Positions 225 to 40,820 of a stretch of 40,875 nt of DNA are shown one piece after another. The position numbers and the translations under genes were made by a program. The notes beneath the pieces were generated by a model. That model saw only the letters and a program-made list of their open reading frames with translations, was not told the DNA's origin and made no database searches. Numbering within the stretch: position 1 is the first letter of the stretch; each line of letters begins with the position of its first letter. This stretch comes from Clostridiaceae bacterium (GTDB lineage Bacteria > Bacillota > Clostridia > Peptostreptococcales > Natronincolaceae), in NCBI GenBank assembly GCA_020832135.1, contig JAFIFG010000051.1, positions 1 to 40,875 of the forward strand. The letters are read 5' to 3'.

Positions 225-1958
225 TTAGCTGGACTGTATAAAGTTAATAAACTTATTACCCATTGATCCCCTCAAATTTCTATTAAGTAAAACCACAAGC
301 ATTTGTTTTGCCCTTGTCATAGCTACATAATTTATGCTACTAATCCAATCATTCTCCAATTCCTCTAATCCAATTAAGATAATTATTTTATTTTCTAGAC
401 CTTTATAAGCTTGTACACTGCAATAAGATACCCTATTATAATCTAATAAACCTACATTCTCATAAGTTATTTTTATAGGAATATGATCTATTTCTAATTT
501 TTTTATTATCCTATCCTCAAGACTGTTTTCTGGATAAAGAATAGTAATATCACCATAAGATAATCCATTAGATTGTAAGTTTGTAATTGTGTTTTTTAAT
601 AATTCAATTTGTTCTCTATCATCAACGTAATAGAGATATTCAACAGGCTCACCTTCCTGTACTCTTGTTTTTTCTACAGCATATCCAGAAACTAAAGAGG
701 CTGCATCAACAATGGGTTTTGTATTTCTACAGTTAAAATCAAGGTAATATTCAGCTGCCCCAAAGCCTTTTAATTTACCTACTAATGCCTCATCAAAGTT
801 ATTATACATTTGGGCTTGATTACTAGGATCATAAAAGATTGTCCAGTGTCCACATGCTAATCCACCTTTTAAAATATAATCAAGGGCTATAAAATATCTT
901 TCATATAAAAAATCTTGCCCCTCATCAATAATTAAATAATTATACTCCTCATTTACTTCATGAATAGCTTTAATGAAATAATTAGGATATACTTGTCGGT
1001 ATAATTTATCTAATGGCATATCTTTGCTTGAGACTTTAAACTCTTGATACCAAATTGATCTTTTGATTACATTTAGAAAATACTTATGTAAAGATTCCAC
1101 CTCTATTGTATTTTTTACCTCTTCCTTCGCTAAAAGGGAGTTCAGCTTTGCAGCTAAAATTTTATTAAAACAAAGGAGTAAAACCTTTTTTCCTGTGGCC
1201 GCCAACCTTCTGGCCTTCTCAATAGCTAACAGTGTTTTGCCAGTCCCTGCAGTACCTCTAAAAAACATCCTATCATTAAACTCCATTTGATCTAATGCTC
1301 TATATTGATCTTTAGTAAATCTTATACTTAGCTCTTCTCTTTCATCCAACTTAAAGTTTAGTGGCTTAATAATTTCAAAATCTCCCCTTAGATAATCCAC
1401 TATCTTTTGAATCTCAGAATTAGATAATATGTTTTTTTGTGGACATTTCATTTCCCAAAACTTTACTAATCTTTCTACATATAAAGAAAATGAATATAAT
1501 CTATCGCTACGATTATAAATAATCTCATTACTCCATTCAATGGATGAAATGTTGAATTCAATATCAGGAAATAATACCCCATATCCAAAAAGAATGTTGC
1601 TAAAAAATTCAGGAAATTTTACAGATAAACTTTGCTTCAATGAAAAATGTGCATCTGCTATTTGTCTAAATGGACCTTCTGTTTTCTTTGTTATTTGACC
1701 ATATTTATCAGAGAAATACCATAGACCATCCTTTCTCTTTACATTTCCTCCCTTGACTTCAAGACACAGTACTCCTTTAGGACCTACCATAAGAAAATCG
1801 ATTTCACCCTGTATTTTATATGTATGTTCCGCCAACCCTAGGGAATGGATACAAGTCCATTCCTTAAGTTGGAGATCATTTTGTATTAGTGTATATATCC
1901 TTTTTTCTGCATTACTCTTTACATCGCGGTGTATATAAGGTGGTATCATTTTAGCCAC
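225..1958 (-). CDS. NERD nuclease-domain fused to UvrD-like SF1 helicase
   Basis: The 577-residue protein starts with a NERD (nuclease-related) domain: GEID at residues 51-54 and LEVKGG at 66-71 give the conserved acidic/lysine pattern of the endonuclease-like fold. A superfamily 1 helicase core follows, with Walker A GTAGTGKT (235-242), Walker B IIDEGQDF (343-350), a CRNT motif, and the C-terminal motifs VQAYKGLE and YVAMTRAKQ typical of UvrD/Rep-like enzymes. It should be an ATP-driven DNA translocase coupled to a nuclease-like domain. The GTG start is preceded by GGAGG. The gene begins 14 bp after the DrmE-like gene, so the two are probably co-transcribed. NERD-helicase fusions occur in defence loci. 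A defence role here is inferred from context; nothing in the sequence proves cleavage. Confidence 0.8.
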   Translation of the reverse strand: MAKMIPPYIHRDVKSNAEKRIYTLIQNDLQLKEWTCIHSLGLAEHTYKIQGEIDFLMVGPKGVLCLEVKGGNVKRKDGLWYFSDKYGQITKKTEGPFRQIADAHFSLKQSLSVKFPEFFSNILFGYGVLFPDIEFNISSIEWSNEIIYNRSDRLYSFSLYVERLVKFWEMKCPQKNILSNSEIQKIVDYLRGDFEIIKPLNFKLDEREELSIRFTKDQYRALDQMEFNDRMFFRGTAGTGKTLLAIEKARRLAATGKKVLLLCFNKILAAKLNSLLAKEEVKNTIEVESLHKYFLNVIKRSIWYQEFKVSSKDMPLDKLYRQVYPNYFIKAIHEVNEEYNYLIIDEGQDFLYERYFIALDYILKGGLACGHWTIFYDPSNQAQMYNNFDEALVGKLKGFGAAEYYLDFNCRNTKPIVDAASLVSGYAVEKTRVQEGEPVEYLYYVDDREQIELLKNTITNLQSNGLSYGDITILYPENSLEDRIIKKLEIDHIPIKITYENVGLLDYNRVSYCSVQAYKGLENKIIILIGLEELENDWISSINYVAMTRAKQMLVVLLNRNLRGSMGNKFINFIQSS

Positions 1959-1972
1959 GACTTTCCACCCTC

Positions 1973-4558
1973 CTACAAATTATCTTTTTCAATAATTCTA
2001 TTAATTTTTATAGCAGGTACCTTCACTAAATCTTTGTAAACATTTTTAACAATAACAGTTTGTGCATACTCAGATAAATCTTTTTCTAAATCCTTAAGAA
2101 GCAGATCTTGTTCTTCTTTAATATCTGTCAATGAATGGGTAATCTTAAATGCCAGCAATCTACCTATGCGAATATGAATACTTTTCAATTCCCTACTGGC
2201 AATATCAACTTCTTGTAAATTATTAATTAATTCTTCATCCTTGGTTAAGCGAGAAATACTCTCCAGTGCATTTCCACTCGGACATATACAATCTTCACTG
2301 TTCAGCCACCATCTAATAGTTTCTATTCCTCTTTCACATCCGATGTTCTTCAGTCTAACTTGCAACTCTTCAAAATTAAACTGATTCTCATCCATATATT
2401 TTATTAGTGCTTTTCTCCACAAGTTTGCTGTTTTTACCTTTTTACCAATATCAGTATTGGCTTCTTTAAGATGAGCCATTATCTTTTCAAATATATCTTC
2501 CTTTGAATTTTTTACAAATACTACTTCATCTCCTACCTCTAACTCTGCTGCTTTTTTTATTTTCATTGCCTTTTTTTCATAATCTACACACCTACATCTA
2601 TATCCTTCTGATAAAAATCCAATATAATCATCTTCAAACTCTATAGGGATTGCTTCCTGCACCCGTGTTTGTTCTCCTAAATATTGGTTCTCTGTATTAA
2701 TAATTCCACTATTGATAAAGTAGGATATATCATCAAAATTTCTTATAAAGAGAGAATCTTCTAGTTTTACCTCTTCTACCTTTTCATCTGCTAATATAGT
2801 ACCTTCCTCTTCCAGCAGTTGATTTTTTCTGTTAAGATAAGTGGACTGGTTTTTTTCAAAGTAATTAAAAAATTTCTCTTCTTCATTATAAAAAACCATA
2901 ACTTGTTTTTTTACCCCGGGCTTTAACAATGTTTTTACATGTTTTGCTCCATACATACCTGTAAATAAAGCCATTTGAAAGTTTTGTTCTGTCTTCATAA
3001 ATTCTGATAAGGTAATTATTTTAATTGGGTTATGCACATTCCACTCTCTCATTCGTTCCATCAAGATTGTTTTGTATCGACCGCCATTCGTTACAATAAC
3101 ATCCTTTTTCCTCATATTTCTCACTATATCAATAAATATTTCTTCTTTGGGGTGTCTCTTATCATGTTGTTCTCTAAGTTTCTTTACTATTTCAATAATT
3201 TCATCTGTTTTTTCAAAAATAAATTTATCTGTTGAGGAATACATATATACTCGCATTTCCTGTAAAAAAGTATCTGCATCTTGAATTTCATTGTGAAGGT
3301 TATTATCCTGTAAAAATGCTAACGGTACAGGCAAAAGCCTTAATTGTAAAATTATTTTGTAAACTCTTTTTATAAAAGCACTTTTATAATCATTTTCAAA
3401 ATCAGCCTTATCTACTTCGTCAAGAAGTTTATACAATGCCTTTATATTTTCTTCCACTTTATCGGAGACAATCTTTATTTCCTTGTCAGATTCTTTAAAA
3501 TATCTCAGGCTCTTCAAAGCATCAGTAAGATAGTTGTCTCCTAGAGAATCTTTTGCATTATTTTCATTTTCTGTATCGTACTTCCTCATATATTCTTTAT
3601 CATAAACATTTACCGCCAAACCTAAGGATGCCAAATTATCAAGATCTTGATTTTCATATCTATGTAAGTCATCTATTACTATAATATTTTTTAACTGTTC
3701 TTTTTCTATAAGACTATCGAGGACAGCTAAATTACCTGATGTTTTATTCATTCCGTGGATTAATAATGCTTTAATTTCCGGTCTTTTTTCTATTAAATCA
3801 TGAGCTGTATTAAGGGATGAAGTAAACAGAATTTTAGGATCTCTTTGAAGGTCATCAGGTCCTATCCTTTCAAATAATTCATTTGATGAGGAAAAATATG
3901 CTGAAGGGAAAATAAAACTAATAGGAATATCTTCTACATTAATATTAATATACCTATCCATTATATCTTTTTTGCTCATTACTATAAGAATCTCCGACTT
4001 GGAGAAATTAGGAATATCTCCTTCATCTAATTCAAAGATTTCCGAAAAAATTTCTCTTGTTTTACTTATTTTCTTATTAGGCTTATATTTATAATTATTT
4101 AATTCTATAGCTTGCCCATCATACCTATTAATTTTCCATGCCTCTTCAACAGACAGGTATATATTTAGATCCCTAAATTTAATCATAAGCTTTTCATTAT
4201 TTTTGACATAAGCTGAATCTATTTTCTGTATACCTATGTATTCTCCAAGACAGCCATTTACTTTTACTTTATCACCTTTTTTTAATATGCTAGTGACATC
4301 TAGTGCAGCACTCTCCATGTCACTTTTTAAAAGATAAAATGGAAGTGTTGATATCAGCATCATGGACAAAATAAAACTGGTAGGATGAAGAATAACATGG
4401 TGTTTATCGTGATTTATTTCAAATGCTTTAATTAATTTCTCTAGTATATTTATGTCAATAGGTCCATATGAGTAGCTAGTTTTTTCATAATTTAACGTTA
4501 ACTTTTGCAAAAAATCCAAGTCTTCACTTAGTATTTCCTCAGCACTTATAGCTTTCAT
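1973..4558 (-). CDS. Large protein resembling DISARM DrmE
   Basis: About 861 residues from the preferred ATG; a GTG 12 bp upstream is also possible. The N-terminal third has a KOW-like stretch (KGDKVKVNGCLGEYIG). The middle has an alpha/beta region with IIVIDDLHRYEN, similar to a Walker B strand, but I see no clear Walker A, so ATPase activity is doubtful. The C-terminal part has the pattern LWRKALIKY followed by ETIRWWL. I associate that pattern with the DrmE component of DISARM anti-phage systems, but this is from memory and not confirmed. It sits directly upstream of the NERD-helicase. The other DISARM genes (drmA, drmB, drmC) are not in the window, so if it is DrmE-like it works in a different, smaller system. 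Function is otherwise unknown. Confidence 0.5.
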   Translation of the reverse strand: MKAISAEEILSEDLDFLQKLTLNYEKTSYSYGPIDINILEKLIKAFEINHDKHHVILHPTSFILSMMLISTLPFYLLKSDMESAALDVTSILKKGDKVKVNGCLGEYIGIQKIDSAYVKNNEKLMIKFRDLNIYLSVEEAWKINRYDGQAIELNNYKYKPNKKISKTREIFSEIFELDEGDIPNFSKSEILIVMSKKDIMDRYININVEDIPISFIFPSAYFSSSNELFERIGPDDLQRDPKILFTSSLNTAHDLIEKRPEIKALLIHGMNKTSGNLAVLDSLIEKEQLKNIIVIDDLHRYENQDLDNLASLGLAVNVYDKEYMRKYDTENENNAKDSLGDNYLTDALKSLRYFKESDKEIKIVSDKVEENIKALYKLLDEVDKADFENDYKSAFIKRVYKIILQLRLLPVPLAFLQDNNLHNEIQDADTFLQEMRVYMYSSTDKFIFEKTDEIIEIVKKLREQHDKRHPKEEIFIDIVRNMRKKDVIVTNGGRYKTILMERMREWNVHNPIKIITLSEFMKTEQNFQMALFTGMYGAKHVKTLLKPGVKKQVMVFYNEEEKFFNYFEKNQSTYLNRKNQLLEEEGTILADEKVEEVKLEDSLFIRNFDDISYFINSGIINTENQYLGEQTRVQEAIPIEFEDDYIGFLSEGYRCRCVDYEKKAMKIKKAAELEVGDEVVFVKNSKEDIFEKIMAHLKEANTDIGKKVKTANLWRKALIKYMDENQFNFEELQVRLKNIGCERGIETIRWWLNSEDCICPSGNALESISRLTKDEELINNLQEVDIASRELKSIHIRIGRLLAFKITHSLTDIKEEQDLLLKDLEKDLSEYAQTVIVKNVYKDLVKVPAIKINRIIEKDNL

Positions 4559-4659
4559 TTTAATCACCACTTTCCTAAATTGACATTGCTAAACTTATTT
4601 AATTATATATTTCTAGTTCAACTTATCTTTTCCTTCAATTTTTACTTTTTTTCTATTGT

Positions 4660-4845: not shown

Positions 4846-6009
4846 CTATGTATTTTTTGCTTTAACCATTTGGATAAAATATTCTAATGAAAAGATTCTT
4901 TCCTTAAACTCCTTTGGGAAACTACTAATATAATCTTTTGGTACTACTAAAGTAACTTTATGGCTATACATCTCGGCTAATTGGTTTTTTGATATTCCCT
5001 GTTGTAAAGTAAAAAGATGTTTTTCTTCTATTCTATCTGCTTCATTTAATATTTGTCGCCACCGGTCTTTACAGGTTGTCTTGGCTCCCAAAAAAGTCAG
5101 TCCACTACTTTCAAAGCTGAGATCATGGTAAGCCTCTTCACTTGGGAAAATAAAGTCCGGTTTTTTATTCCCTTCTGTTTTGGCTTGTGCAGTATAGGAA
5201 AGGGTATAGTGTGTAAACATAGCTGCTAAATGATGCTCTAAAGATCTACCTGCCCTGCTTTTTCTTCTGTTTAATAATGTATTGGCACATCGAATTAATT
5301 CATCTACTGTTTCAAATGGTTTTGCAATTCGATCACGATATCTATCATTTTCTATAGCTCTAAATAGTTGATACTCGATGTCTAACCACTGAATTAAAGC
5401 TTTATCTGCACTATTTAATATTTTTCCCTTTTTGATTTTAATATATATTTCTCTAGATGCCTTAGCTATTTCATAGGTAGCAGGAAAATCTGTTTCTAAC
5501 CGTGAAACATATTGAAGGAACAATTCCTCTAATGAAATCTTTACATCAGCTGACTTATCTGTTTTAATCAGTGCATTTGTATCACTAGGAGACATGCCAA
5601 AGGCAGCTAAAAAACCCTCGATTTCCTCGTCAGAACTAATAATAAAAGCTAAGTAATCCTCTTTATTAACCTTTACCAAAACAAACAAGTCCCCCATATA
5701 TTTATCCTTTAAAAAAGGAAATCCTCTTCCAAAACGAGTTATACGGTATTCACTTCTAGTTCCTTTTCCATACCAAATAAATCTACTTTCAGTTTCAAAG
5801 TCATCCTGCCATTTGATTTTTACAAAACTATCCTTATTTTCTCCCTTATGGCCAGCGACATCAAATAAAATTCTATAGGCACTTTTAGGTATATATATAC
5901 CTGATTGATGTGCACCCGTAGCTCCTACATCATTTGCTGCAATGAACTTGCAAAAAGCTAGAGGATGCTCTTGACAGGCACTAATTGCCTTTTCTAAAAT
6001 TTCCGACAT
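4846..6009 (-). CDS. EcoRII-type restriction endonuclease
   Basis: 387 residues from the ATG preceded by GGGGTG. The N-terminal half (about 1-170) fits the EcoRII-N DNA-binding effector domain (GATGAHQSGIYIPK, GRGFPFLK). The C-terminal half is the EcoRII catalytic domain: KKPDFIFP, then LGAKTTCKDRW, then LNE. The spacing of the aspartate in PDF, the two lysines in AKTTCK and the glutamate of LNE (25, 4 and 9 residues apart) equals the catalytic D299/K324/K328/E337 set of EcoRII as I recall it, so the active site looks intact. EcoRII is a type IIE enzyme that cuts at CCWGG and needs two sites; the specificity here is inferred from the family only. The gene follows the methyltransferase by 23 bp and should be in its operon. 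Confidence 0.9.
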   Translation of the reverse strand: MSEILEKAISACQEHPLAFCKFIAANDVGATGAHQSGIYIPKSAYRILFDVAGHKGENKDSFVKIKWQDDFETESRFIWYGKGTRSEYRITRFGRGFPFLKDKYMGDLFVLVKVNKEDYLAFIISSDEEIEGFLAAFGMSPSDTNALIKTDKSADVKISLEELFLQYVSRLETDFPATYEIAKASREIYIKIKKGKILNSADKALIQWLDIEYQLFRAIENDRYRDRIAKPFETVDELIRCANTLLNRRKSRAGRSLEHHLAAMFTHYTLSYTAQAKTEGNKKPDFIFPSEEAYHDLSFESSGLTFLGAKTTCKDRWRQILNEADRIEEKHLFTLQQGISKNQLAEMYSHKVTLVVPKDYISSFPKEFKERIFSLEYFIQMVKAKNT

Positions 6010-6032
6010 CAAATCACCCCTGATGAAGTTAT

Positions 6033-7187
6033 TTATGCACTTTGTTCCTTTTCAATCCTTTGTTCCTTTTGTTCCATTGCAATAAGCATTTGTTTCGCAA
6101 TATCTGTTATTAGTGGCACAACAACTGAATTGCCGAATTGCTTATAGGCTTGGGTATTAGATACTACAATTTTAAAAGTATCAGGAAATCCTTGTAATCT
6201 AGCACATTCTCTAGGAGTTAGTTTTCTGGGATTTTTATTTTCTTGTGGAATTAATATCTCTGATCCATCCTTATAGTATCTTGCACTTAAGGTTCGGCTA
6301 GTACCATCTAAAGGTGCTAAACCATAGCCAAATCCATTTCCCTTAGCTTGATGTTTTTCTTTATATCTTTTTAAATAATCCCATTGTCTATCAGTTAAAG
6401 TATACTTTTGATCTACTATATCTTCAAGTATGTCCTTCATAACATGGTTAGCTGGAGGCAATTCGGGAAACTCAAATTTTTCTTCTTTCCCATAAACCAA
6501 CTGATCCATTCCAACAATATAAATCCGTTCTCGGTGTTGTGGTACATAGTGTTTACCATTGATCACTTTAAAGTAAATTTTATAGCCTAAGCTTTCTAAT
6601 GTTTCTTGTATGACTTTAAAGGTTCTTTTCTTATCATGGGTAGTTAAATTTTTTACATTTTCCAATAAAAATGCTTTGGGCCTTTTATGTTTTAGTATAC
6701 GAACAATATCAAAGAAAAGTGTTCCCTGGGTCTTATCTAGAAACCCATGTTCCCTACCTAGGCTATTTTTCTTTGAAACCCCCGCAATTGAGAAGGGTTG
6801 ACATGGAAATCCCGCCACCAAAATGTCATGATCAGGTATTTCTTTTTCATTAATTTTTGTAATATCTCCTTCAGGAAGGTCCCCAAAATTTTCATAATAG
6901 GTCTGCTGAGAAAATTTGTCCCACTCTGAGGAAAAAACACACTCTCCACCATTCTCCTCAAAGCCAAGTCTCATGCCCCCTATCCCTGCAAATAAATCAA
7001 TAAAAGTAAAGTTAGCCTCCTTGGCTTTACTCTTCTTAAGCCATTCATATACAGAGATTTGTTCCTTAAATTTATCATTCAATGCCTCTATCACATATTC
7101 CTGCATAGTCTTCTCTTCTTGTGTCGCCTTAGTTCGTAGCTGTTGATGCATCTTATCAGGCAGTTTAATATGTATTTGTTTTGTCAT
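6033..7187 (-). CDS. DNA (cytosine-5) methyltransferase with N-terminal ribbon-helix-helix domain
   Basis: 384 residues. Catalytic motifs of a C5 methyltransferase are all visible: motif [11 protein letters not shown] (about 62-71, SAM binding), motif [10 protein letters not shown] with nucleophile Cys129, motif VI ENV (176-178), motif VIII QHRER (217-221), motif [13 protein letters not shown] and motif X QFGNS near the C-terminus. It should modify the same site as the neighbouring EcoRII-like nuclease and protect the host. Residues 1-40 ([19 protein letters not shown]) look like a CopG/Arc ribbon-helix-helix DNA-binding domain, where other autoregulating methyltransferases (M.EcoRII, M.SsoII) carry a helix-turn-helix. 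With two operator-like repeats over its own -10 region, this strongly suggests the enzyme represses its own operon. Confidence 0.93.
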
Positions 7188-7211: not shown

Positions 7212-7248
7212 ATATACCTATCATATACCAATATAGAAACAGAGTCAA
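7212..7248 (-). promoter_or_regulatory. Promoter and probable RHH operator of the restriction-modification operon
   Basis: On the minus strand a -35 TTGACT (7243-7248) is followed after 17 bp by -10 TATGAT (7220-7225), 32 bp upstream of the methyltransferase ATG. Two direct copies of GGTATAT (complement at 7212-7218 and 7223-7229) sit exactly 11 bp apart, one helical turn. One overlaps the -10 box and one lies just after it. Tandem half-sites at this spacing are typical of ribbon-helix-helix repressors, and such a domain is fused to the gene's product. Confidence 0.75.
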
Positions 7249-7639
7249 GAAAAAACAGAACATATATTCGAGTTTTAATGAATTTATATTTCAAATCTTA
7301 TAATTCAAGGGTTTATAATTACAAATGGTTTATTCTTAAGAGTTATGAATTGTCTTTCTAAATCCAAATTGTTTTACATATGGTAAATATAGCTATTCTT
7401 TCTTATCACCGAAAAAACTTTGCTATTGTTACTATATTGAAGTTTAAAGCAGCTCACTGTTTCTATTGCTAACTAATAATTAAATTCTAATTCATAAACA
7501 AGTTATTTAGGAATCGAAAAATAATATTTAGCTACTACTTTTAAAATTCACAAGAATATAATTTACATAATTTCTATATTTACATGTTTTCATGCACTAT
7601 AAACTTTTTTCATGTCTAATCTATTTTGAATTAGTGAGT
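7249..7639. other. AT-rich gap without recognisable gene
   Basis: This stretch between the methyltransferase promoter and the ornate RNA candidate is very AT-rich. I see no gene with a ribosome site. It may hold the 3' boundary of the RNA transcript coming from the right, but no canonical hairpin-plus-T terminator stands out. Confidence 0.5.
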
Positions 7640-8450
7640 CAGGGTCCGCAACCTTTTAAAGCATCTATAGAAGCAGTACTCACAGGCTGATCCTTTAAAA
7701 GATTGCCCTCAAGGGTTCAATGCTACCGTTCCCTCCATAAACTTTTCCCATGAAGGCCTACTTACAGCAATGGAAAAGATTATTCCAGTCACCGGGTCTA
7801 TCTCTATAGTCCATCTCCACAGACTCCCTCCCCATCCAGCAAAAAACAAAAGCAGAGGCAGACTGTTCCGATTACAGGTCCACCTCTAGGGTCTTCTCCC
7901 CCAACTACCGTTCCATAGTAATAGGATTTCAGTTGGTCGATCTCAAAAGCTAATCCTATCCCTATTCCACTTTCCCTAAATGTACATAATTTCAGGAATA
8001 GTTGCTCCTATGGGGCATTCCCTCCGGAGTCAGCAACTACCGTTACACTTGCCTGAAATCGACATTTAGTGAATAGTTGGGGGATACCGGGGTCTAGCTT
8101 TAGGGTTCTTTGCTAGGTCTATCTCTAAAGCTATATAAAAAATCCCTAGGTCATCAGGAGAGGAAAAACCCCTCACCTGCCTCTCGGGTCAATTTAACAG
8201 TGATACTTTTAAGAATTTTTCTAGTAGTTCTCTGAAGCCTGTCACCCATTATTTCATCCTCCACCGCAGACTTCCCCAACTAAGGTCCACCTCTACAGAG
8301 GGAAGACTGCTTTCAAAACTACTACTTGTTGATCATTACCATCAGCAAGAGAAGCACCCCACTTCCCTTGCACCTATAGGGTCCTGCAATGCTATTACCT
8401 AACGTTCATAGATTGCTGGCTTTATGGTCTCGGTAGCGACATTGTCACGA
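7640..8450 (-). ncRNA. Candidate giant ornate non-coding RNA (ROOL/GOLLD-like)
   Basis: About 0.8 kb with no plausible gene, clearly richer in GC than its flanks and packed with long-range complementarity. Perfect or near-perfect stems: 7648-7661/7693-7706 (14 bp), 7897-7907/8074-8084 (11 bp), 7921-7928/7952-7959, nested 7976-7983/8062-8069 and 7989-7996/8052-8059, 7999-8006/8032-8039, 8096-8103/8125-8132, 8155-8163/8171-8179 and 8266-8276/8300-8310. Two stems (7648/7693 and 7732-7738/7750-7756) have G-U pairs if read on the minus strand but A-C mismatches on the plus strand, which favours minus transcription. Six copies of GAGRUNGACC (one ends in ACU) and three of AACGGUAG recur in loops and linkers. 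Size, complexity and prophage setting resemble the GOLLD and ROOL RNA classes; the exact class cannot be assigned by eye. Confidence 0.75.
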
Positions 8451-8577
8451 TACTGTATTAATACAATCTCATTTAACTCTTTCTTCACTTTTCAAGCCAC
8501 AGCTCTAAATAATATGAATCATTTTAAATTAATTTCAATTATCTTTGAAAAAAGTTTAATGTCCCTAATCAATTTTA

Positions 8578-11500
8578 TTACAGTAACTCTGTTGCTAGCC
8601 CTTTGGAAGATTTAGGTCGAGCCCATTTGTAATATCCAGTATTTTTTTCATCTGGGTAAAAATCATGTATCCAGTTCTTCTCTTTAAATATTGTTAATAA
8701 CCTTTCATTTGTTGTATTAACCTTAAATTTCGGTCTGCCACTCCCCAATATTTTGAGATATTGTACTAATCCTAATACCTCTAGATATTCTTTACAGGAA
8801 TCCTTATCCATTTCAGGCAAAGAGATTATTAATAGTTCTATTTTTTTATCTTTATTTAAAGTATCCGAAGCTAATAAATTTCTAAATAGTTTATTGGAAA
8901 GCTTTAAAGCATCAGTAATAATTCCCTCTACATATTGCACTGCTAAGTCATTTATTATTTGTTGAGTAGAATAATCCCATCTTTCATAGGAAACAAAAAG
9001 ATACGGGAGATCATCTTGATTAAGATTATTTTCCAAAATGTGCTTATTAACAACGATGGAATACCCTTTATCCAAAATGGATAGAGGCTTGTCAGCAAAC
9101 TCAAGTAATTGAATTTTAATTTCATCGTCTACTGTCCACAAAAGAATTTCCATCATTTCATCAAAATTGAAAGTTTCAGTTGTAATAACTTCATTAACAT
9201 ACTCGTGTAGGTTTTTTTCTATATAATATAAAACTTGATCTGGATATTCTTTCCTTATAAATTGCAATGTTCCTAGATTCATCTTTATGATTTTTATGTC
9301 TATAATAATTCTAAGTTTTTCATCTGTTATGCCTGAGATATCAAATGAATCGCAGTGAAAATTTAAAGAATCTACAATTGATTTATATTTATGACTTGAT
9401 AATTCGTTACAAGCAATGGCTTCATCAAACAAATTTTCCGCTAATTCTTCTCCAAAAGAATTTTTAATATTAGAAAAGTCTAATTCTTTCTCCCCACTAT
9501 TTATAAATGAAATAAGTGTATTATCTAATTTTTTACTATGTCCAAAATATATGAATATATTGTTATCTGAATATTCCACCAGGTCATTATCAAGCAATTG
9601 TGCCCACAATGAATTATCCTTAATCTCACTTAGCGATGTTATTGGTGTTTGCAGTGAATTAATATATGTGCTTTTCTGTTCAATGGATATATCGGGATTA
9701 TTAAGAAGCAATATAACAATTTTCTCATCATCATTAATAGTTCCATTACAATTCGTTAAAACAATGTCAAGATAATTACTGATATTATTGTTCACATATT
9801 TAGCTAATGACGATTCTGGATGTGCCTTAATCAAAGTATAATTCTTATGCCGAATATTTACCTCACTTTCTATTTGATAAACTTGACACAGCATTAGAGA
9901 TAGATTATCATAGTTTATTTCATAAAGAGAATTATCGTATACTGCTTCGAATAATTCTTTATCTGCTACATCATAATCAATTGTTATAAATGATACTTTC
10001 AGCAGATCGAAACCATAAATTAGCTTATCTATCTTTGGGCTCTCTATCGCTAGATAATCACTACTATTAGAAATGTAATCAGCTAAACAATTATCTGTGT
10101 TAACAGCCTGAATACTATCTTCATCTGAATAATATAAGGTGTACATCGAATAAAGCCTTTTCTGTCTTTCAGAAAGAGTACCTTTTTCCATCATAGCGAG
10201 GAATAGCTCCGGCCACTGCAAGTTAAGATTCTCTATATAAGAGGACAGTGCTCTTCTCGTATTAAAATATGCACCTACAAATTTATAGTTCTTTGTTTCT
10301 TTAAGTTGGTTTAAAAATCTGTTCAGAAACTGCAAATTATCCTGTTCCTTTAGAAGATGCTCTAGTAAATCAAAATTTAAAATTTCTTCCTGGTCGAAAT
10401 TCACTAACTGGAGTCTATAAACAACCTTTTTGGGATCTTTGAGCTGGTATATCCATTCTTTAGCTTTCTTATCTGTTATACTACGTAAAAAAGTCTTATC
10501 TATTCGACTGAGGCTATTCTCATAAAAATACGTCATATAATCTGTATATGTTTCATCAATATGACCTTCACGTATGAGATACTTAAGCAAATCAAAATAA
10601 TCACTGCCCTTGATTTCATTAAAGTCGGTTTCGATCCCAATTTCATTTATACTGGCTACCTTGAATATCTTATCAATATTCTTTCGAGTAATGATTTCTT
10701 TTAGCTGTTTGCTTTGCATAAGAACGATTTCATTTTCAATTTGTGCTAAGTCAGATTCTAAGTCTGGGAGTCTACGATTTAATACATTATCAATAGCTTT
10801 TTTTCGTTCCGTATATTCGACATCATACTGTTTCGACAATTTTTCTTGTTGTTGCTGGTATTGCCAACCTTTAGGTATTTTTGAACGTTTATCCATGTAT
10901 ACAGCATCTAGTTCTTGAATAGAAATAAGATGCTCATTTCTAGCTACTCCAATTTCCTCCCGCTTAAGGACTGCCTGTTCTTTAAGCGACTCTATTTCTT
11001 CAGCAATAAATTCATCTTTTTTGTTAAAGATTGTGAAAACCATTCCTCTATTAAGCTGTAAATCAGTAAAATCCCTTGGAAATAAGTTTTTATACGTTAT
11101 CATTGCCAGCATTTTATTGCAGTCCAACCCTGTTGTATTAAGCCTGTTGTAGTAAATTGTAAATTCATTGTATATATTTTTTAATATGCGCATGTCATCA
11201 ATGTATAGAGAAAGCCCTTGTAAAAAACTTTCATCGAACAGTTTAAAAATCCCACCTTCTTTAAAGTGTGAAATGAATTGATCATAAGAGTTTGAACTAT
11301 CAACCACAGGAACAATGGGTACAATATAATCAAAAAATTTCGTTCTATCTTTGGATATAAAAATATCATCACGGACAAGATAAAAAAATCTTAATGGGGG
11401 CTTTCGTTTTTCCTTATGCTGTATATTTACTAGTGTATTTACTTCACGAAGTCTCTCAAATACTTGATTAGCATTAAAACGATCTATATCCTCAAAAACA

Positions 11501-12267
11501 ATAACATTAGCCTCAGTATTTTCAAAGAGATATAAAACTTCATTAAGATATTTATCGAAATATGAATCCTCACATTCTTCAAAAACCTCTATTTCATTAC
11601 CGTGCAAGCTAATTTTTTTAAATACATTTTTATTTTTTTGTGCTCTCACTAAAGTATAGATAAATATACCAAATATAGTGATACAAAGCAATCCACTTAC
11701 CAGAAGAGAATTAAGGTGTGTTGATGATAATAATAGTATTTTTAACCAATTGTCATATAAAGAGTGTACATATCCAACCCAATTTTCAAACATGGTGACG
11801 TGTAGAATAGAAATAAGAAACAACACAGTAAACAATGTACTTATTATAATATTTTTAGGTTTAACTATTTTCTTGACTTTAAAATTAGTTTGAGGAATTT
11901 TATCAGGATGAATCTGATGTATTAGTTGATTTAATATTTTCCCTTCTAATACAGATTCTTTCTTTTGATTAGGAGGCTTAAGTGAATTCAGTCCTTCATC
12001 TTTTAATACAGATTCTTTTATTTCAGTCTCTTCATTCTGATTGAGAGACTGAAAATGTGCTAGCGATATATGTAAAAATCGTATTTCTTTATGTTTATTC
12101 TTATATGATTCCAAAACACTACTCTTGCCAGCACCATATGCTCCTGATATTGCAACATTTTCAATGTCATCATTGTAAAAAATAAAATCTAATGCATCTT
12201 CATATATTTTGAGATCTATGTTGCCGTTAGGAGTTAATTTTTGGAATTTATACTTGTTTTCTTTCAT
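8578..12267 (-). CDS. YobI-type membrane P-loop NTPase
   Basis: About 1229 residues from the second ATG, chosen because AAGGA is at proper distance; an ATG 9 bp upstream is also possible. Near the N-terminus there is Walker A GAYGAGKSS (about 42-50). Two hydrophobic membrane segments follow (about 140-165 and 185-210, e.g. STLFTVLFLISILHV and LLCITIFGIFIYTLV), then Walker B VIVFEDIDRFN (about 255). After that come a coiled-coil region (about 430-530) and a long leucine-rich C-terminal half without known motifs. This architecture matches the YobI-like P-loop NTPase family named after B. subtilis YobI, a KAP-like group found in mobile elements and suspected of anti-phage roles. Activity and target are unknown. 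It stands alone, with a DUF7662 gene upstream in the same direction. Confidence 0.8.
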   Translation of the reverse strand: MKENKYKFQKLTPNGNIDLKIYEDALDFIFYNDDIENVAISGAYGAGKSSVLESYKNKHKEIRFLHISLAHFQSLNQNEETEIKESVLKDEGLNSLKPPNQKKESVLEGKILNQLIHQIHPDKIPQTNFKVKKIVKPKNIIISTLFTVLFLISILHVTMFENWVGYVHSLYDNWLKILLLSSTHLNSLLVSGLLCITIFGIFIYTLVRAQKNKNVFKKISLHGNEIEVFEECEDSYFDKYLNEVLYLFENTEANVIVFEDIDRFNANQVFERLREVNTLVNIQHKEKRKPPLRFFYLVRDDIFISKDRTKFFDYIVPIVPVVDSSNSYDQFISHFKEGGIFKLFDESFLQGLSLYIDDMRILKNIYNEFTIYYNRLNTTGLDCNKMLAMITYKNLFPRDFTDLQLNRGMVFTIFNKKDEFIAEEIESLKEQAVLKREEIGVARNEHLISIQELDAVYMDKRSKIPKGWQYQQQQEKLSKQYDVEYTERKKAIDNVLNRRLPDLESDLAQIENEIVLMQSKQLKEIITRKNIDKIFKVASINEIGIETDFNEIKGSDYFDLLKYLIREGHIDETYTDYMTYFYENSLSRIDKTFLRSITDKKAKEWIYQLKDPKKVVYRLQLVNFDQEEILNFDLLEHLLKEQDNLQFLNRFLNQLKETKNYKFVGAYFNTRRALSSYIENLNLQWPELFLAMMEKGTLSERQKRLYSMYTLYYSDEDSIQAVNTDNCLADYISNSSDYLAIESPKIDKLIYGFDLLKVSFITIDYDVADKELFEAVYDNSLYEINYDNLSLMLCQVYQIESEVNIRHKNYTLIKAHPESSLAKYVNNNISNYLDIVLTNCNGTINDDEKIVILLLNNPDISIEQKSTYINSLQTPITSLSEIKDNSLWAQLLDNDLVEYSDNNIFIYFGHSKKLDNTLISFINSGEKELDFSNIKNSFGEELAENLFDEAIACNELSSHKYKSIVDSLNFHCDSFDISGITDEKLRIIIDIKIIKMNLGTLQFIRKEYPDQVLYYIEKNLHEYVNEVITTETFNFDEMMEILLWTVDDEIKIQLLEFADKPLSILDKGYSIVVNKHILENNLNQDDLPYLFVSYERWDYSTQQIINDLAVQYVEGIITDALKLSNKLFRNLLASDTLNKDKKIELLIISLPEMDKDSCKEYLEVLGLVQYLKILGSGRPKFKVNTTNERLLTIFKEKNWIHDFYPDEKNTGYYKWARPKSSKGLATELL

Positions 12268-12359
12268 TATAACCATTCCTTTTTATGATTACGAACCATC
12301 TATTCAATATTGCACTAAAATTAGGCATTCCCATCTTGTTTTTAGTTTTATTTAAATTT

Positions 12360-12922: not shown

Positions 12923-13171
12923 TTAAACCCTACTCAACCTCTTCACCCTCCTACAAACCCCACTACTACTCAACCCAAATTTCCCAGCCAACTCCTCATA
13001 GGTCCACCCCTCCCCATGAAGTCGCTTCATCTCTAATGCCTCCACCCTCTGCTTTTCCTTTAGAGTCAACTCAATCAATCCGTACTTATCTAAGATTAAA
13101 TCCGGCAGCACTTCCTCTGGGGAAAGAATAACCTCTAATAAAGCTATATAGTTAAGCTTAAAATCCTCCAT
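12923..13171 (-). CDS. Small phage-type helix-turn-helix protein
   Basis: 82 residues. The C-terminal half (LHGEGWTYEELAGKFGLSSSGVCRRVKRL) is a helix-turn-helix like sigma-70 region 4 or small phage sigma-like regulators. The N-terminal half is a short helical region. The gene begins 1 bp after the VRR-NUC stop codon and uses a GAGGT ribosome site inside that gene, so the two are translationally linked. In complete phages such a protein at the end of the early operon often controls late genes, but no late genes follow here. Confidence 0.65.
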   Translation of the reverse strand: MEDFKLNYIALLEVILSPEEVLPDLILDKYGLIELTLKEKQRVEALEMKRLHGEGWTYEELAGKFGLSSSGVCRRVKRLSRV

Positions 13172-13172
13172 A

Positions 13173-13484
13173 TTAAAAGTACCTCATTCGATCAGATAAA
13201 TTGCCCAAAATCCCCCTTACATCTTCTACAGAGTACACCACCTCTGCTATAGCACCCGCTGCAGTAATATCCTTTAATACCTTTTCCTGTAGCTTTGTAG
13301 GTTTCTTACCTGGTACTTTTATTTCTAAAGCTATAAATTGACCTCTGTAGCAAAGAATAATATCTGGAATACCTGCCACTTGGTACATCCCTCCATGGGT
13401 TTTGAAGAACCATGTATCAGACTGTTGCTTTAAATAATCGGTGATTTTCTTTTGTATTGTTTTTTCCGTCACCTTTTTTGTCAT
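13173..13484 (-). CDS. VRR-NUC domain nuclease
   Basis: 103 residues, the typical length of the stand-alone phage VRR-NUC proteins. Visible signature: TWFFKTHGGMYQVAGIPDII, with the PD of the PD-(D/E)xK fold, then ALEIKVPGKKPTKLQ with the E-x-K and the glutamine. These form a metal-dependent nuclease active site. In phages the protein is part of the replication/recombination module. The gene sits in the early operon between a small unknown protein and the HTH protein. The key residues appear intact. Confidence 0.88.
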   Translation of the reverse strand: MTKKVTEKTIQKKITDYLKQQSDTWFFKTHGGMYQVAGIPDIILCYRGQFIALEIKVPGKKPTKLQEKVLKDITAAGAIAEVVYSVEDVRGILGNLSDRMRYF

Positions 13485-13533
13485 CTATTGCACCTCCCCC
13501 TTCCTAATTCCCTAATCCCCTACTTCCTGATAC

Positions 13534-13701
13534 TTAAGATACTCTGTTCTTTTCCCCTACCTCTGTTTCTTCCTCTTCACCTTTCATTTCATTAAGTTTA
13601 TAATCCTTCCCAATCCCCATGGCTCTTAAAGCCTTATCAGGAGTATAATTTCTCACAATAGCTAAATATAAAGCTAAGTAATTTTCCATCAATAGATCCA
13701 T
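13534..13701 (-). CDS. Small hypothetical protein
   Basis: A 55-residue frame starting MDLLMENYLALYLAI and ending EEEETEVGEKNRVS, preceded by GGGGGAAT at ribosome-site distance. It contains NYTPDKALRAMGIG, a short helix-turn-like segment, and an acidic tail. It lies 26 bp after the upstream coiled-coil gene in the same operon. The family is not recognised; operon position and a good ribosome site support it being real. Confidence 0.6.
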   Translation of the reverse strand: MDLLMENYLALYLAIVRNYTPDKALRAMGIGKDYKLNEMKGEEEETEVGEKNRVS

Positions 13702-13727
13702 CTCTATTCCCCCTTGTTTTCCTACCC

Positions 13728-14192
13728 CTACGGAGTAAATTCTTTTGTTTCTTGGAATCCCAGTTGTTGAAAATCTTCATCTATTTGCATCTCTTTTTCT
13801 TTCTCTATTTTCCCTTTATAGTTTTGATAAAGGCTTTCTAATAGTGTATCCTGCACTAATTTTGCCTTCTCTAAATGCTCCCTCTCCTTGGTTTGGAAGT
13901 AATCATATACACTAGCTGTTATTTCATCTATAAATTCTTCTATGATATTGCTACCTTCGCCCATCAACTTTTCATAAAGATACTGAATAGCTGTTTTATT
14001 TAGAGCAAATAAGTTTAAAATCATAGCCTCCTCTTCCGTCATGGATTCCTGCTTTATCTCCTGCCTAAGATCTTTGATCTCCTGTTCCAGCTGAATAATG
14101 GCATCCTTCCACCTTAATTTCTCCTGTGTTGTAAGGCTATCTGCCTTTTCTTTTCGCTTTAAAAGTTGCTGAAGTTTTTCTTTCTTATCCAT
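13728..14192 (-). CDS. Coiled-coil protein of the early operon, unknown function
   Basis: 154 residues from the ATG that follows GGAGG by 5 bp; a TTG four codons upstream overlaps that ribosome site and is less likely. The protein is almost entirely charged helix, with a strong coiled coil in residues 1-50 (KEKLQQLLKRKEKADSL, QLEQEIKDLRQEIKQ). No enzymatic motif is seen. It lies after the origin-like repeats and before the VRR-NUC gene, so a role in replication or recombination is possible but unproven. Confidence 0.6.
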   Translation of the reverse strand: MDKKEKLQQLLKRKEKADSLTTQEKLRWKDAIIQLEQEIKDLRQEIKQESMTEEEAMILNLFALNKTAIQYLYEKLMGEGSNIIEEFIDEITASVYDYFQTKEREHLEKAKLVQDTLLESLYQNYKGKIEKEKEMQIDEDFQQLGFQETKEFTP

Positions 14193-14280
14193 TCTCTCCT
14201 CCAATTCTCTTTAGATACCCCTACAACGGGGCAACCTCCAACAGTCTACAACCATTGAAATTACTGAATTGTTTATATCT

Positions 14281-14456
14281 GTTACCCGTTACCTCTAGTT
14301 TTAGAAAATACTCATCTATTATTTTTGTTATGTTGGTAGTGGATGGACTTTACATTCCTTATATATACTATATATAAGGGTAACTATGGTAATAGTGGTA
14401 ATAGGGTAGATAAGCCCTTGTAAATACTATGCTTTTTTGTTACCACTGAGGTTACA
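14281..14456. repeat. Iteron-like block with long AT palindrome: candidate replication origin of element 1
   Basis: The 275-bp gap directly after the primase-helicase gene holds a perfect palindrome at 14357-14379 (two 11-bp arms, left arm CCTTATATATA, one central C). Around it are repeated GTTACC/GGTAAC-type words: GTTACC at 14281-14286, 14288-14293 and 14439-14444, GGTAAC at 14379-14384, GGTAATA at 14388-14394 and 14397-14403, and GGTTAC at 14450-14455. Clustered short repeats beside an AT-rich unwinding segment and a replication gene are what phage and plasmid origins look like. The assignment is inference. Confidence 0.5.
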
Positions 14457-14479
14457 CTTTAAAATAAAGGGGTGACTGT

Positions 14480-17173
14480 TTAAAAAGGTGGTGTTTCCTC
14501 TATTTCCTCCATTTTTGAAAGGTTAAAGCTAATCATCCTACAGGCCTTACCTTCTATTTTCTTTACAACTGATCGTCGTTTTTTGCCGTTCTTTTCATAA
14601 GTAATATCAATATAACTTCTATCTTCAAAGCCCTGCATGATTTTTCTAAAGGAAAAACCTTGTTTATCTAAGGCCTCCTGCAGGATCTGTGGAAAGACAT
14701 AAAATCGATTATCATCAATAACACCGTAGCTTTCCCGTTTTGGATTTCCCCTAAATTGCTCTATATTAGAAAGCAGCCAACCCTTTACAAATTCATAAGC
14801 CCTCTCCACTATATCTGCCTCCATTACATCCTCTAAACTGCTTAAAATTTCATTGCCCATTGCTATGGAGTTATTTTCTTCTTGGAATAGCCAATTACTA
14901 ATCAATTCTTCTGCCAATACCACCACCGCTACAGAGGATACATGACTGGCTATTTTTTTATGATTTTCATTAGACTGCATCAATGTCTCCTGTATTGCCT
15001 TATGCCATTGCTGTAGTTGGTGGGGCTTTAATTTTTCCATCAACTTCTCTATAAAAAAAGGTCCTGCCATACCATAGTTCATAACAGAGTTGCTATGCAT
15101 CCTACTGGCCTCTCCTTCCTCTTCAAAAGGACTGCCGTAAATTTCTAAGGCTCTAGTATGCACCCCTGTTTGGGATCCCATGGTGGTTAATGGTTCTTCC
15201 CCTGTTGTTAAAACAATGCTTCTCCATGACTTCTGATTTTGAAGACCTCCTGTTTTCGTGCCCCTTACTTTGCTATAACCCATGGAAAGCATATAGACTA
15301 AGGTTGCAATATACTCCTGCTTTCCCCCAGCTACTTGTCTTTCATCGATTCCTAAAGGTAAATCATTGAAGAAACTGGCTAATCTCTCTAAACCTACATT
15401 AGTAGCATTAAAACTAGTCATCAGCTCTTCAGGATTTCCCCATACACTTAAAGCTGCCTTTAGGGCTGCTGTTTTACCGCCCCTTGAGTCTCCCCAATTA
15501 TGAACAAAGAAGATTCTATGGTTTAATAGTTTTAAAAGTGGTGCTGCAAAGCTACTGGCTAAAATAAAGCGAAAGATGGTGTTTTGTCTTAAGGGTTTCA
15601 TCATATTTATCCAATTCTGTAATTTACCTTTTTTACTATAGGCCTCCACCCATCGCCTTTCACTATGCTCCACATCCAATACAAGTTGCCCTTCTCTTCC
15701 CGGGAGAAAATTATCTCCATGCCATCCTAATTGATTCACAGACTCTAACGTTTCAATGATGTCAATATTCTCTGCCTCTAGCTTCTCTAGAAACCTCACT
15801 AAAAACTTAGCATTTTCAGAAGTGACGGTGACACCAACATCTGCCAACTTAATAATAGTTCTAGCTTGAAAAATGGTGCTTCTTTGTTCTCTTACACAAT
15901 GCCACTTTTTATCCCTTAAGAAGGCGATCTCCACCTTTTCTTCCTCCATCCCTAAGGTCTTTAGTCTTCTAGCAATTAAGATGGGAGTCTTACAAACTAA
16001 GTAAGGTAGTCCAGTTTTAGGATGAATCATCTCAATACCACCCTCCGTCACTCGCCATCCTGCCGGTTGTCTTAGTCTTACTGGAGCATTGGGAATGAGG
16101 TTTTCTTCCTCCTCTTGTAGATTTGTAAGAATGATTTCCTCTGTACCCTCCATTACCCTTTGCCACTTTTTCAGGAAGGTAGAAGGATCTTTAATGTGGA
16201 GGTCTGATGGGTCCTTTTCTCCTTGAGATTTACATTGAATTTTATACACTTTTCCTTTGAAATGATTGTCCTCTAGGGTTTTACATATCTTATTTAAAAA
16301 AGTATCTCCTCCAGCATCTCCTTCATAGTGGATATAAATGTCTAGTCCCTCCAACTTCTCCACCCAATCTTTATGAAAGGTGGTGGCTCCTGGGACACCT
16401 AAGATCTCTTCTATTCCATAGCTCCATAGGGTATGACAATCACTTTCACCCTCTACTAAAAGTACTTTTCTAGCCCTCCTAGCCTTTTCTAACTGCCATA
16501 AACCATAAAGGCATACTTTGCTACCTCTAGCCCATGAAAACCGTGTAGGGTTGTCCTTGTGGTATCGCTGGCGATTAGATAAGACCTTGCCTTCTTCGTC
16601 TTTATAGGGGATGGTAATACCGGTTTTACCGTCTCTTATGCCTAAGAATCTTATGAAAGCCTCTGATAGTTTCTTTTCCTTGCAGTAGTCTTTTACGGTA
16701 TATTTAGGAGCCTTTTTCTTGTCAGAAGTTTTGGTTCTTGTATTTTCTACATCCTTCCTGTCCCTGCTGTTATGCCTTTGGTTATGACTATTTTGTATAT
16801 CCTTAGTGTTGCTGGATTTGCTGATGGCATTATGGCTCTCTTTATTGTTTGTTGTATTGGGAAATCTCTCTTTATGACTATGTATATCTTCTCTATTATC
16901 ATGCTTCTCGTCATAGAGGCCTGCTTCTTTAAGTAACAGCTTATAAGCCTCTTTATTACTAATCCCTTCCACCTTAGCCATAAAGGTAATGGCATTCCCC
17001 TTTTCCCCACATGCTAGGCAATTATAGACTCCAGTTTTAATATTGGCACCGAAACTTGGCTTTGTGTCATCATGGAAGGGGCATAGCCCCACCAGATTAT
17101 CTCCGCTGATCTTTCCTTTTTTTATATATCCTTCATAGAGTTTTTTATAATCTACTTTTTCCTCTAGATTCAT
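14480..17173 (-). CDS. Primase-helicase fusion (CHC2 zinc finger, Toprim, DUF927)
   Basis: 897 residues. Residues 31-55 hold the CHC2 zinc-binding primase finger (CPFHDDTKPSFG, then CLACG; ligands C31, H34, C52, C55). A hydrophilic linker runs from about 90 to 155. A Toprim domain follows (VLLVEGESDCHTLW, EGESD at 241-245; later YEGDAGG gives the second acidic motif). The C-terminal half is a DUF927-type superfamily III-like helicase, with HNWGDSRGGKTAA as Walker A and PLGIDERQVAGG near Walker B. One protein would thus prime and unwind DNA for replication of the element. The gene is the longest of the early operon and is followed by the origin-like repeats. All key residues I looked for are present. 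Confidence 0.88.
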   Translation of the reverse strand: MNLEEKVDYKKLYEGYIKKGKISGDNLVGLCPFHDDTKPSFGANIKTGVYNCLACGEKGNAITFMAKVEGISNKEAYKLLLKEAGLYDEKHDNREDIHSHKERFPNTTNNKESHNAISKSSNTKDIQNSHNQRHNSRDRKDVENTRTKTSDKKKAPKYTVKDYCKEKKLSEAFIRFLGIRDGKTGITIPYKDEEGKVLSNRQRYHKDNPTRFSWARGSKVCLYGLWQLEKARRARKVLLVEGESDCHTLWSYGIEEILGVPGATTFHKDWVEKLEGLDIYIHYEGDAGGDTFLNKICKTLEDNHFKGKVYKIQCKSQGEKDPSDLHIKDPSTFLKKWQRVMEGTEEIILTNLQEEEENLIPNAPVRLRQPAGWRVTEGGIEMIHPKTGLPYLVCKTPILIARRLKTLGMEEEKVEIAFLRDKKWHCVREQRSTIFQARTIIKLADVGVTVTSENAKFLVRFLEKLEAENIDIIETLESVNQLGWHGDNFLPGREGQLVLDVEHSERRWVEAYSKKGKLQNWINMMKPLRQNTIFRFILASSFAAPLLKLLNHRIFFVHNWGDSRGGKTAALKAALSVWGNPEELMTSFNATNVGLERLASFFNDLPLGIDERQVAGGKQEYIATLVYMLSMGYSKVRGTKTGGLQNQKSWRSIVLTTGEEPLTTMGSQTGVHTRALEIYGSPFEEEGEASRMHSNSVMNYGMAGPFFIEKLMEKLKPHQLQQWHKAIQETLMQSNENHKKIASHVSSVAVVVLAEELISNWLFQEENNSIAMGNEILSSLEDVMEADIVERAYEFVKGWLLSNIEQFRGNPKRESYGVIDDNRFYVFPQILQEALDKQGFSFRKIMQGFEDRSYIDITYEKNGKKRRSVVKKIEGKACRMISFNLSKMEEIEETPPF

Positions 17174-17233
17174 CTTCTATCTTTGCCCCCTTCATTACTT
17201 CTTACATAAGAGGACCTATAGGCCCTCTCCTAC

Positions 17234-18133: not shown

Positions 18134-18147
18134 CTGTACATCCCCCT

Positions 18148-21530: not shown

Positions 21531-21548
21531 AATGTTGAGGTGATTTAT

Positions 21549-22013: not shown

Positions 22014-22025
22014 AGGAGGAATAGC

Positions 22026-40812: not shown

Positions 40813-40820
40813 TTTGTTTT

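Follow-up and report, generated by a model that had tools for sequence, protein, structure and literature searches.

The region between positions 7640 and 8450 of the window (the whole 40,875-nucleotide stretch of DNA analysed here) almost certainly encodes a real structured RNA, judging from its homologues, and these show it to be one member of a multicopy family of large noncoding RNAs that combine a core domain with repeated hairpin modules. The window is the 40.9-kb contig C55 and is part of the 4.0-Mb draft genome G000. Comparison of the copies shows that base pairing is under selection in the core, in the H module and in the motif-A hairpin. The class of RNA is absent from Rfam 15 and from the literature covered; its kind, the large structured noncoding RNA, is already known.

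A first, sequence-only reading had described an 0.8-kb gene-free island of higher GC, and this description is borne out by base composition, ORF list and stop counts. In 300-base windows, GC is 0.44-0.46 across 7700-8449 and falls to 0.23 and 0.29 in the flanks (7250-7549 and 8450-8749, respectively). No ORF of at least 80 amino acids is listed inside 7640-8450, and the 841 nt of the region hold 10-26 stops in each of the six frames. Homologues sharing a conserved reading frame, which that reading had named as grounds against a noncoding RNA, were not found: in six frames of 17 core homologues, a single frame of a single homologue is free of stops. A protein-coding reading is ruled out, since no frame is conserved across the core homologues. 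The RNA and two promoter-like sites are placed as follows:

7640-8430 (approximate limits; the 5′ end may reach about 8500), minus strand: giant structured noncoding RNA of the RNA-A type, from blastn homology to copies in its own and related genomes and a cross-locus conservation profile.
8509-8538, minus strand: promoter-like site TTGAAA-18-TATTAT, 5′ of the RNA, a consensus match only (10 of 12).
7220-7248, minus strand: promoter-like site 3′ of the RNA, ahead of the methylase gene, a consensus match only (10 of 12).

The site at 8538-8509 fits an RNA start near 8500. Across loci, RNA lengths range from ~0.8 kb in the window to ~2 kb on contigs C32 and C130; these are estimates from cross-locus conservation. 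No terminator-like site was found on the sense strand in seven regions scanned, and the opposite strand held one in six.

The RNA appears to be read on the minus strand, as the sequence-only reading had proposed from G-U pairs in two stems. G-U cells outnumber A-C cells by 38 to 8 in the core alignment and by 9 to 3 in motif A, which supports this direction; the H module, with 8 of each, is neutral. Folding energy is undecisive (z of -2.8 on the minus and -4.1 on the plus strand, 20 shuffles each) and was dropped as strand evidence, the score being stronger on the plus strand. In the 5′ to 3′ direction of the RNA, the structural elements are:

8379-8424, minus strand: motif-A hairpin with loop UAUGAACGUUAGGUAAUA and a stem bulged by one nucleotide on its 3′ side, one of a set of 30 hairpin copies.
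8345-8371, minus strand: hairpin GCAAGGGAAG/CUUCUCUUGC, present and almost invariant in all eight copies of alignment A7.
8266-8310, minus strand: stem GCAGUCUUCCC/GGGAAGUCUGC around a GAGGUGGACC word, in the eight A7 copies, with a single compensatory change.
7897-8084, minus strand: core domain with a long-range closing helix (7897-7907/8074-8084), nested helices and a second long hairpin, from a 17-copy alignment and covariance model R1.
7807-7881, minus strand: H-module hairpin 1 (CAGUCUGCCUC...GAGGGAGUCUG with mismatches), scoring 55 bits with covariance model R2, of whose 28 building rows it is itself one.
7725-7798, minus strand: H-module hairpin 2 (UAAUCUUUUCC...GGGAAAAGUUUA with a conserved U.U mismatch), scoring 69 bits with R2 and also a row of that model.
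7648-7706, minus strand: 3′-terminal stem GCAAUCUUUUAAAGGAU...AUGCUUUAAAAGGUUGC, with arms at 7690-7706 and 7648-7664.

Stems similar by eye to the last of these are found near the 3′ end of L049, L050, L053, L042 and L056a. R2 also matches the stem at 8266-8310, weakly (18.9 bits). The 11-bp long-range helix singled out in the sequence-only reading is present: TCCCCCAACTA at 8074-8084 pairs with TAGTTGGGGGA at 7897-7907, and in the ten of 11 pairs that were scored 93.5% of cells are paired, with both sides changed in three pairs. The loop words noticed there recur much as claimed, AACGGTAG in three exact copies and the GAG[AG]TNGACC type in five exact copies plus one with a single mismatch, for which a count of six is fair. 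Over 2000 mononucleotide shuffles the averages for the two words were 0.017 and 0.004.

Covariation was scored against 500 shuffles and against slid controls, in place of R-scape. Shuffles ignore relatedness, so that their counts are not probabilities; the slid controls keep relatedness and agree with them. The core alignment (A2, 187 nt) consists of 17 copies collected by DNA similarity only, leaving out the truncated or odd cores L045, L046, L048b, L051b and L056b, as well as L100 and L104, which were found later. Its 49 pairs have 93.5% standard cells, and 16 of them are changed on both sides, compared with 6.6 in shuffles. The covariation score is 0.192 versus 0.118 for shuffles, none of the 500 reaching it, and 0.05-0.09 when slid. 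The second long hairpin of the core varies greatly among copies, reading AUAGGAU/AUCCUAU in one set and GACAGAAC/GUUCUGUC in another, the pairing being kept.

The H module (75 nt) is made of 3 bp, a mismatch and 7 bp, with GACUGGAA and UGGAGGGAGCGG on either side; among 28 copies the mismatch is U.U in 23, U.G in four and G.G in one. Its covariation score is 0.622 versus 0.254 shuffled (reached by 0 of 500; slid, 0.08-0.22). Of 54 raw matches, the alignment (A4) retains the 28 whose loop distance is ~42-46 nt; the regex used to collect them constrained the outer six stem positions and left the inner five pairs free; the 3′ partner of L100 +195 was corrected by hand. Dropped were L050 +366 and L051b +239 (loops of 55-56), L040 +575 (46, mostly paired), L051a -598 (58, unpaired) and eight matches with loops of 125-137 nt, seven of them well paired and L055 +991 poorly so; the remaining drops were mostly wrong partners or motif-A sites. 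In the outer helix (A4 columns 7-13 and 68-74) tandem G.A/A.G appears by eye to be swapped for Watson-Crick pairs, an impression not borne out column by column.

The motif-A hairpin (46 nt, loop UAUGGACGUAGGUAAUA) is 91% paired over 30 copies, with both sides changed in all seven pairs and a covariation score of 0.800 versus 0.258 shuffled (0 of 500 reach it; slid, at most 0.16). Its stem is an unbiased test because the copies in alignment A6 were chosen by loop only and all 30 regex matches were kept. Some statistics do not rise above shuffles: further pair types (reached by 210 of 500 for the core and 373 of 500 for the H module) and pairs changed on both sides (126 of 500 for the H module, 189 of 500 for motif A). 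For the stems of the 5′ domain (8266-8371) 36 of 500 shuffles reach the score, and covariation is uninformative there because the stems are nearly invariant in the eight rows of A7. L056b, a ninth copy omitted from A7, is without the 5′ arm of the hairpin at 8345-8371, and the region is absent in L051a. Covariation among homologues, the evidence that the sequence-only reading had looked to, is thus strong in the core, the H module and motif A. Chance or a folding artefact is ruled out by the homologues and their covariation. The RNA has what is generally expected of a large structured noncoding RNA, a secondary structure backed by covariation and no conserved frame.

Within its own genome, the minus-strand 841 nt are matched by blastn in long copies on C79 (88% identity) and C40 (86%) and in many partial ones, the shorter pieces being 73-94% identical to the window copy. 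The same query has clear copies in six genomes of the family. Natronincola peptidivorans and one Alkaliphilus MAG also have homologous loci, and cores at additional loci were confirmed with a profile built from the 187-nt core. All copies draw on one small set of elements, combined as mosaics. R1 found copies in eight of 20 family genomes, which are Natronincola/Alkaliphilus-like, with at least 25 copies in that search (E<=1e-8, sense strand). R2 gave 64 matches in 20 family genomes, often several per RNA; at E<=0.01, ten of the 20 have at least one match, weak in G006, G016 and G018. A third, partial RNA copy lies in the N. peptidivorans locus L056 (G012, C18:53000-72999) at 15747-15899, on the same strand and 2.2 kb upstream of RNA-A, so that this island holds three.

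Beyond the family, searches were made on sampled genomes with stricter filters. R1 matched ten of 393 genomes of the order; outside the family, G033 is a clear match (E=1e-19) and G203 a marginal one (E=9e-4). R2 at E<=1e-4 matched seven of the 393, all of the RNA's own family. No new genome was added by R1 in the class (two of 391 matched) or the phylum (one of 398), the matches being known family members. The G033 copy (L101, C1:107-212) is a core at a contig end, in another family of the order. Relatives of two genes, DUF1659 and DUF2922, from a cassette that adjoins other copies lie 1.2-2.8 kb from it on the opposite strand, and the RNA and cassette were likely transferred together. Phage and plasmid collections gave only short blastn matches (E >=0.8). 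Pattern scans of viral contigs found one contig only, the G010 element again by match score and spacing: the IMG/VR record G393 (L108/L109) presents the element of G010 contig C11 as a viral contig with two RNA cores and, by correspondence with L048, both the cassette and a GmrSD gene.

Copies so numerous could be those of a recombination platform or a non-autonomous mobile element, the spread of a repeat rather than an RNA product accounting for them. Many copies per genome, module order and number that vary, variable cargo alongside and inverted pairs able to recombine would all agree with such an origin, which we nevertheless consider distinctly unlikely. The compensatory changes and the core G-U excess act at the RNA level, the long copies of the window's genome are 86-88% identical with no near-identical long copy seen, and A-type copies from different genera group together.

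Rfam models were run on both strands of the window region with cmscan, as the sequence-only reading had proposed, and none matched at gathering thresholds; up to E=10 there were two chance matches, and GOLLD, ROOL and OLE were unmatched. Up to E=5, none of these three matched L050 or L055, which are longer copies, and models of group II introns and HEARO did not match the window copy or other copies. Of the two outcomes that reading had offered, a new member of these classes finds no support at lax thresholds; a new class is supported by the missing Rfam match together with covarying homologues. GOLLD is often found near tRNA islands. The only tRNA genes in the window, at 40735-40875, are ~32 kb from the RNA, and none was found in 23 other copy-bearing loci (3.7-20 kb). 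A divergent GOLLD, ROOL or OLE would share the size, complexity and phage-like context of GOLLD and ROOL, yet with no match to E=10 (window copy) or E=5 (L050, L055) and no tRNA in the 23 other loci, it is a very remote prospect. Because the Rfam models are unmatched and there is no tRNA nearby, the RNA is not filed with GOLLD, ROOL or OLE and at most works like them.

According to PMC12286853, GOLLD and ROOL are prophage RNAs that form RNA-only multimers or cages by cryo-EM, GOLLD expression is raised during phage lysis, and the functions of GOLLD, ROOL and OLE, the ornate bacterial RNAs nearest in size to the new one, are poorly understood. The new RNA resembles GOLLD, as portrayed there, in being very large, with many helices, carried by phage-derived DNA and obscure in its cellular role; unlike GOLLD, it is unmatched by Rfam, has repeated similar hairpin modules and occurs as two types of copy, A and B, around defence genes and away from tRNA genes. 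ROOL, in the same paper (PMC12286853), is likewise large, prophage-borne and without a known protein partner; the new RNA differs in being unmatched by Rfam, longer, modular and not near a tRNA island. OLE is also a large RNA of Bacillota, many of whose hosts are extremophilic or anaerobic, in contrast to which the new RNA is unmatched by Rfam, has many copies per genome and lies in phage-like or defence-gene surroundings. No paper describing the RNA was among the matches listed on GOLLD/ROOL/OLE, Alkaliphilus, Natronincola, DUF2922/DUF1659, or noncoding RNAs of defence islands or prophages, which were mostly non-subscription and text-only. Alkaliphilus is not mentioned in the main text of PMC11109978 and PMC8632094.

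The neighbourhood of the RNA in the window is as follows:

12923-19852, minus strand: phage-like module for early replication, 5′ of the RNA, with DUF927 primase, SNF2 helicase, DUF7307, VRR-type endonuclease and a small HTH protein (Pfam and PHROGs).
8578-12276, minus strand: YobI-like P-loop NTPase (Tmn in PADLOC), 5′ neighbour of the RNA (Pfam PF20693, E=2e-124; PADLOC Tmn, E=4e-73).
4846-7187, minus strand: EcoRII-type restriction-modification pair, 3′ neighbours of the RNA, namely a C5 methylase at 6033-7187 (PF00145, E=5e-102) and EcoRII at 4846-6012 (PF09019, E=1e-62).
225-4570, minus strand: further defence cargo, a DrmE-like gene at 1973-4570 and a NERD-helicase gene at 225-1958 (Pfam and PADLOC).

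The small HTH protein has a sigma-r4 match below the Pfam cut-off. Of the 38 window ORFs, 27 were scanned, and none of these matched a terminase, portal, capsid or tail family. An integrase gene lies beside a tRNA-Arg gene at the contig end (39348-40875), and a second integrase occurs with a repressor and an IrrE-like gene at 21000-23291; the two integrase regions are probably two elements in tandem.

Copies occur in two contexts. RNA-A, the type of the window, has phage-like replication genes on one side and defence genes on the other; the primase, VRR-type endonuclease and small HTH protein are found, in part or whole, upstream of A in the window, L047, L049 and L056. RNA-B lies before a cassette whose order, 3′ of the RNA, is an opposite-strand LexA-type DNA-binding protein, M15 endopeptidase, a protein without Pfam match, DUF1659, DUF2922 and two short proteins. 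It is found at 5826-8270 of L056 and, with gene order identical or almost so, in L048, L050, L051, L100 and L104. The M15 endopeptidase belongs to the endolysin family phrog_894 and the two last short proteins have predicted membrane segments; the cassette may be one for lysis. Within 10 kb of a core lie six of 20 DUF2922 genes, against 0.25 expected. DUF2922 genes are also present in six family genomes without an R1 match, and no RNA was found by blastn around the genes of the four examined (L138, L139, L140 and L142). A GGDEF-WYL gene pair borders the island at 2690-4322 of L056 (Pfam), 5397-7041 of L050 and 837-2530 of L039 (blastp relatives), and its presence in three genomes suggests a fixed chromosomal place of insertion.

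The labels A and B were set from context before a tree of 20 cores was built (midpoint root, without L051b, L048b and the shortest cores). Eight A copies and the unlabelled L054 form one clade with support of 0.67, and B copies fall outside it except L050, which together with the unlabelled L044 branches with A (support 1.0). The cores of A and B are thereby shown to be mostly separate on the tree, and B may not be one lineage. Both types are present in six of the eight RNA-bearing genomes; the B copy of G019 is outside the tree, its best blastn matches being B cores. The A and B copies of G000 and G010 occupy separate contigs. Four genomes each have one copy of either type, A and B, converging across the cargo:

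G012: 57695 (plus strand) and 66418 (minus strand), 8.7 kb apart.
G019: 3155394 (plus strand) and 3164655 (minus strand), 9.3 kb apart.
G003: 885517 (plus strand) and 907081 (minus strand), 21.6 kb apart.
G005: 261696 (plus strand) and 285520 (minus strand), 23.8 kb apart.

A second pair in G003, 75 kb apart, diverges: L055 at 1859316 (minus strand) groups with B, L054 at 1934654 (plus strand) with A.

Gene direction bears on whether the RNA acts in cis, as the 5′ part of a defence operon transcript that either governs read-through (processive antitermination) or makes cargo expression conditional. The nearest 3′ gene of at least 100 amino acids is indeed co-directional in all eight A copies and in 18 of 26 copies overall, and in L047 the RNA, by its estimated end, nearly abuts the next ORF. 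However, the 5′ genes of A copies are co-directional too (6 of 7), so that direction may merely follow the island. Among B copies the nearest 3′ gene is co-directional in only five of nine and the 5′ gene is opposite in eight of eight, and an opposite-strand LexA-like gene precedes the cassette in most. In the window, L049 and L051, sense promoter-like sites separate RNA-A from the first gene, and in L047 such sites occur at the 3′ part of the RNA; they are consensus matches whose total counts exceed shuffles by 1-2 sd. The downstream genes vary from copy to copy. A leader of this sort is, on balance, unlikely.

The sequence-only reading rightly placed the RNA amid defence cargo, for Tmn, the EcoRII pair, the DrmE-like gene and the NERD-helicase flank it in the window and defence genes adjoin other copies as well. 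By Pfam and PADLOC, with some ORFs unscanned, defence genes lie within ~5 kb of at least 13 of the 27 core copies examined. These include the window (Tmn and EcoRII restriction-modification), L038 (Abi_2), L039 (HKD and Snf2), L042 (a PbeA/type IV-kind helicase), L043 (Gabija GajA and GajB), L047 and L051a (C5 methylases), L049, L053 and L105 (type I restriction-modification), L056b (PLD nuclease and methylase), L056a (N6/N4 methylase) and L048b (GmrSD). Scanned neighbours that are not defence genes are GerA in L040, an SBF transporter in L054, a transposase in L055 and a hydrogenase in L057. The association was also examined independently of chosen neighbours, with all PF00145 and PF02384 methylase genes (E<=1e-10) of the eight RNA-bearing genomes and 25 copies (R1 E<=1e-8, sense strand; weaker ones omitted), split matches of three methylase genes being merged by hand. 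Six of 35 methylase genes lie within 5 kb of a copy, against 0.25 expected, and ten of 35 within 10 kb, against 0.44; methylase genes are not independent, pairs sharing an operon, which makes the computed P values too small, and the excess is still large.

Such neighbours could point to an RNA partner of one defence effector, comparable to type III toxin-antitoxin, Abi-linked or RT-linked RNAs. The repeated hairpins would suit it, as would Abi_2 directly downstream in L038. The best PADLOC model for the window's NERD-helicase (225-1958) is the reverse-transcriptase-associated one; no reverse transcriptase, such as a DRT or retron would encode beside its RNA, precedes the contig end, which comes 225 bases past the helicase gene, and none was matched among the 27 of 38 window ORFs (>=80 aa) scanned. 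A type III toxin-antitoxin RNA would consist of tandem repeats immediately upstream of a ToxN-type endoRNase gene; hairpins do repeat here, and no ToxN match was found among the neighbours scanned, a subset of all. C5 methylases (window, L047, L051a) and type I restriction-modification (L049, L053, L105) recur, yet no single effector is beside most copies, and partnership with one effector is accordingly given little credence, less than the repeat-spread origin.

The host element is most simply read as a degenerate prophage or satellite, a phage-derived island in which virion genes would have been replaced by defence cargo. The RNAs may be made as independent transcripts, perhaps upon induction, and the RNA would then be a trans-acting multivalent scaffold on which hairpin modules, several and alike, present one docking surface many times over. 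The docking partner could be other molecules of the same RNA, giving a particle or cage as in GOLLD and ROOL, or one protein, and the island would retain A as well as B since each is a needed part. By analogy, a multivalent scaffold of the GOLLD/ROOL sort, produced by a phage-derived island, is our tentative first choice, at somewhat less than even chances, and it is ranked first because selection at the RNA level, repeated modules, the lack of a fixed protein neighbour and a phage-derived home resemble GOLLD and ROOL.

A more specific proposal is a system of two RNAs, in which A and B, convergently transcribed from the ends of the island, would join through their hairpin modules into one large RNA particle serving the island. 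Such a particle might hold or deliver island products, or sequester a host or phage protein. This proposal is doubtful, a shade more so than the leader, and was marked down in view of the doubt whether B is a single lineage and of the diverging A/B-like pair in G003. Defence hotspots of P4/P2-type satellites carry variable defence cargo at a fixed place in a phage-like element. The islands described here are alike in that respect; they differ in having a giant RNA on each side of the cargo, here in four genomes. To our knowledge no P4/P2-type hotspot has a giant RNA on both sides of its cargo, and we know of no counterpart for convergent related RNAs around defence cargo combined with modular hairpin repeats.

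If the two-RNA system were true, it would represent a defence or satellite element with RNA, not protein, as its conserved hallmark. The new family gives handles for study in its repeated modules, its two context types in repeatable places and its association with defence genes, and one named strain, Natronincola peptidivorans DSM 18979, falls within its narrow host range. The reason for giant RNAs in phage-derived DNA becomes testable in a second, apparently unrelated system. A giant RNA that is often beside anti-virus defence genes in a small related group of bacteria hints at a new job for giant RNAs.
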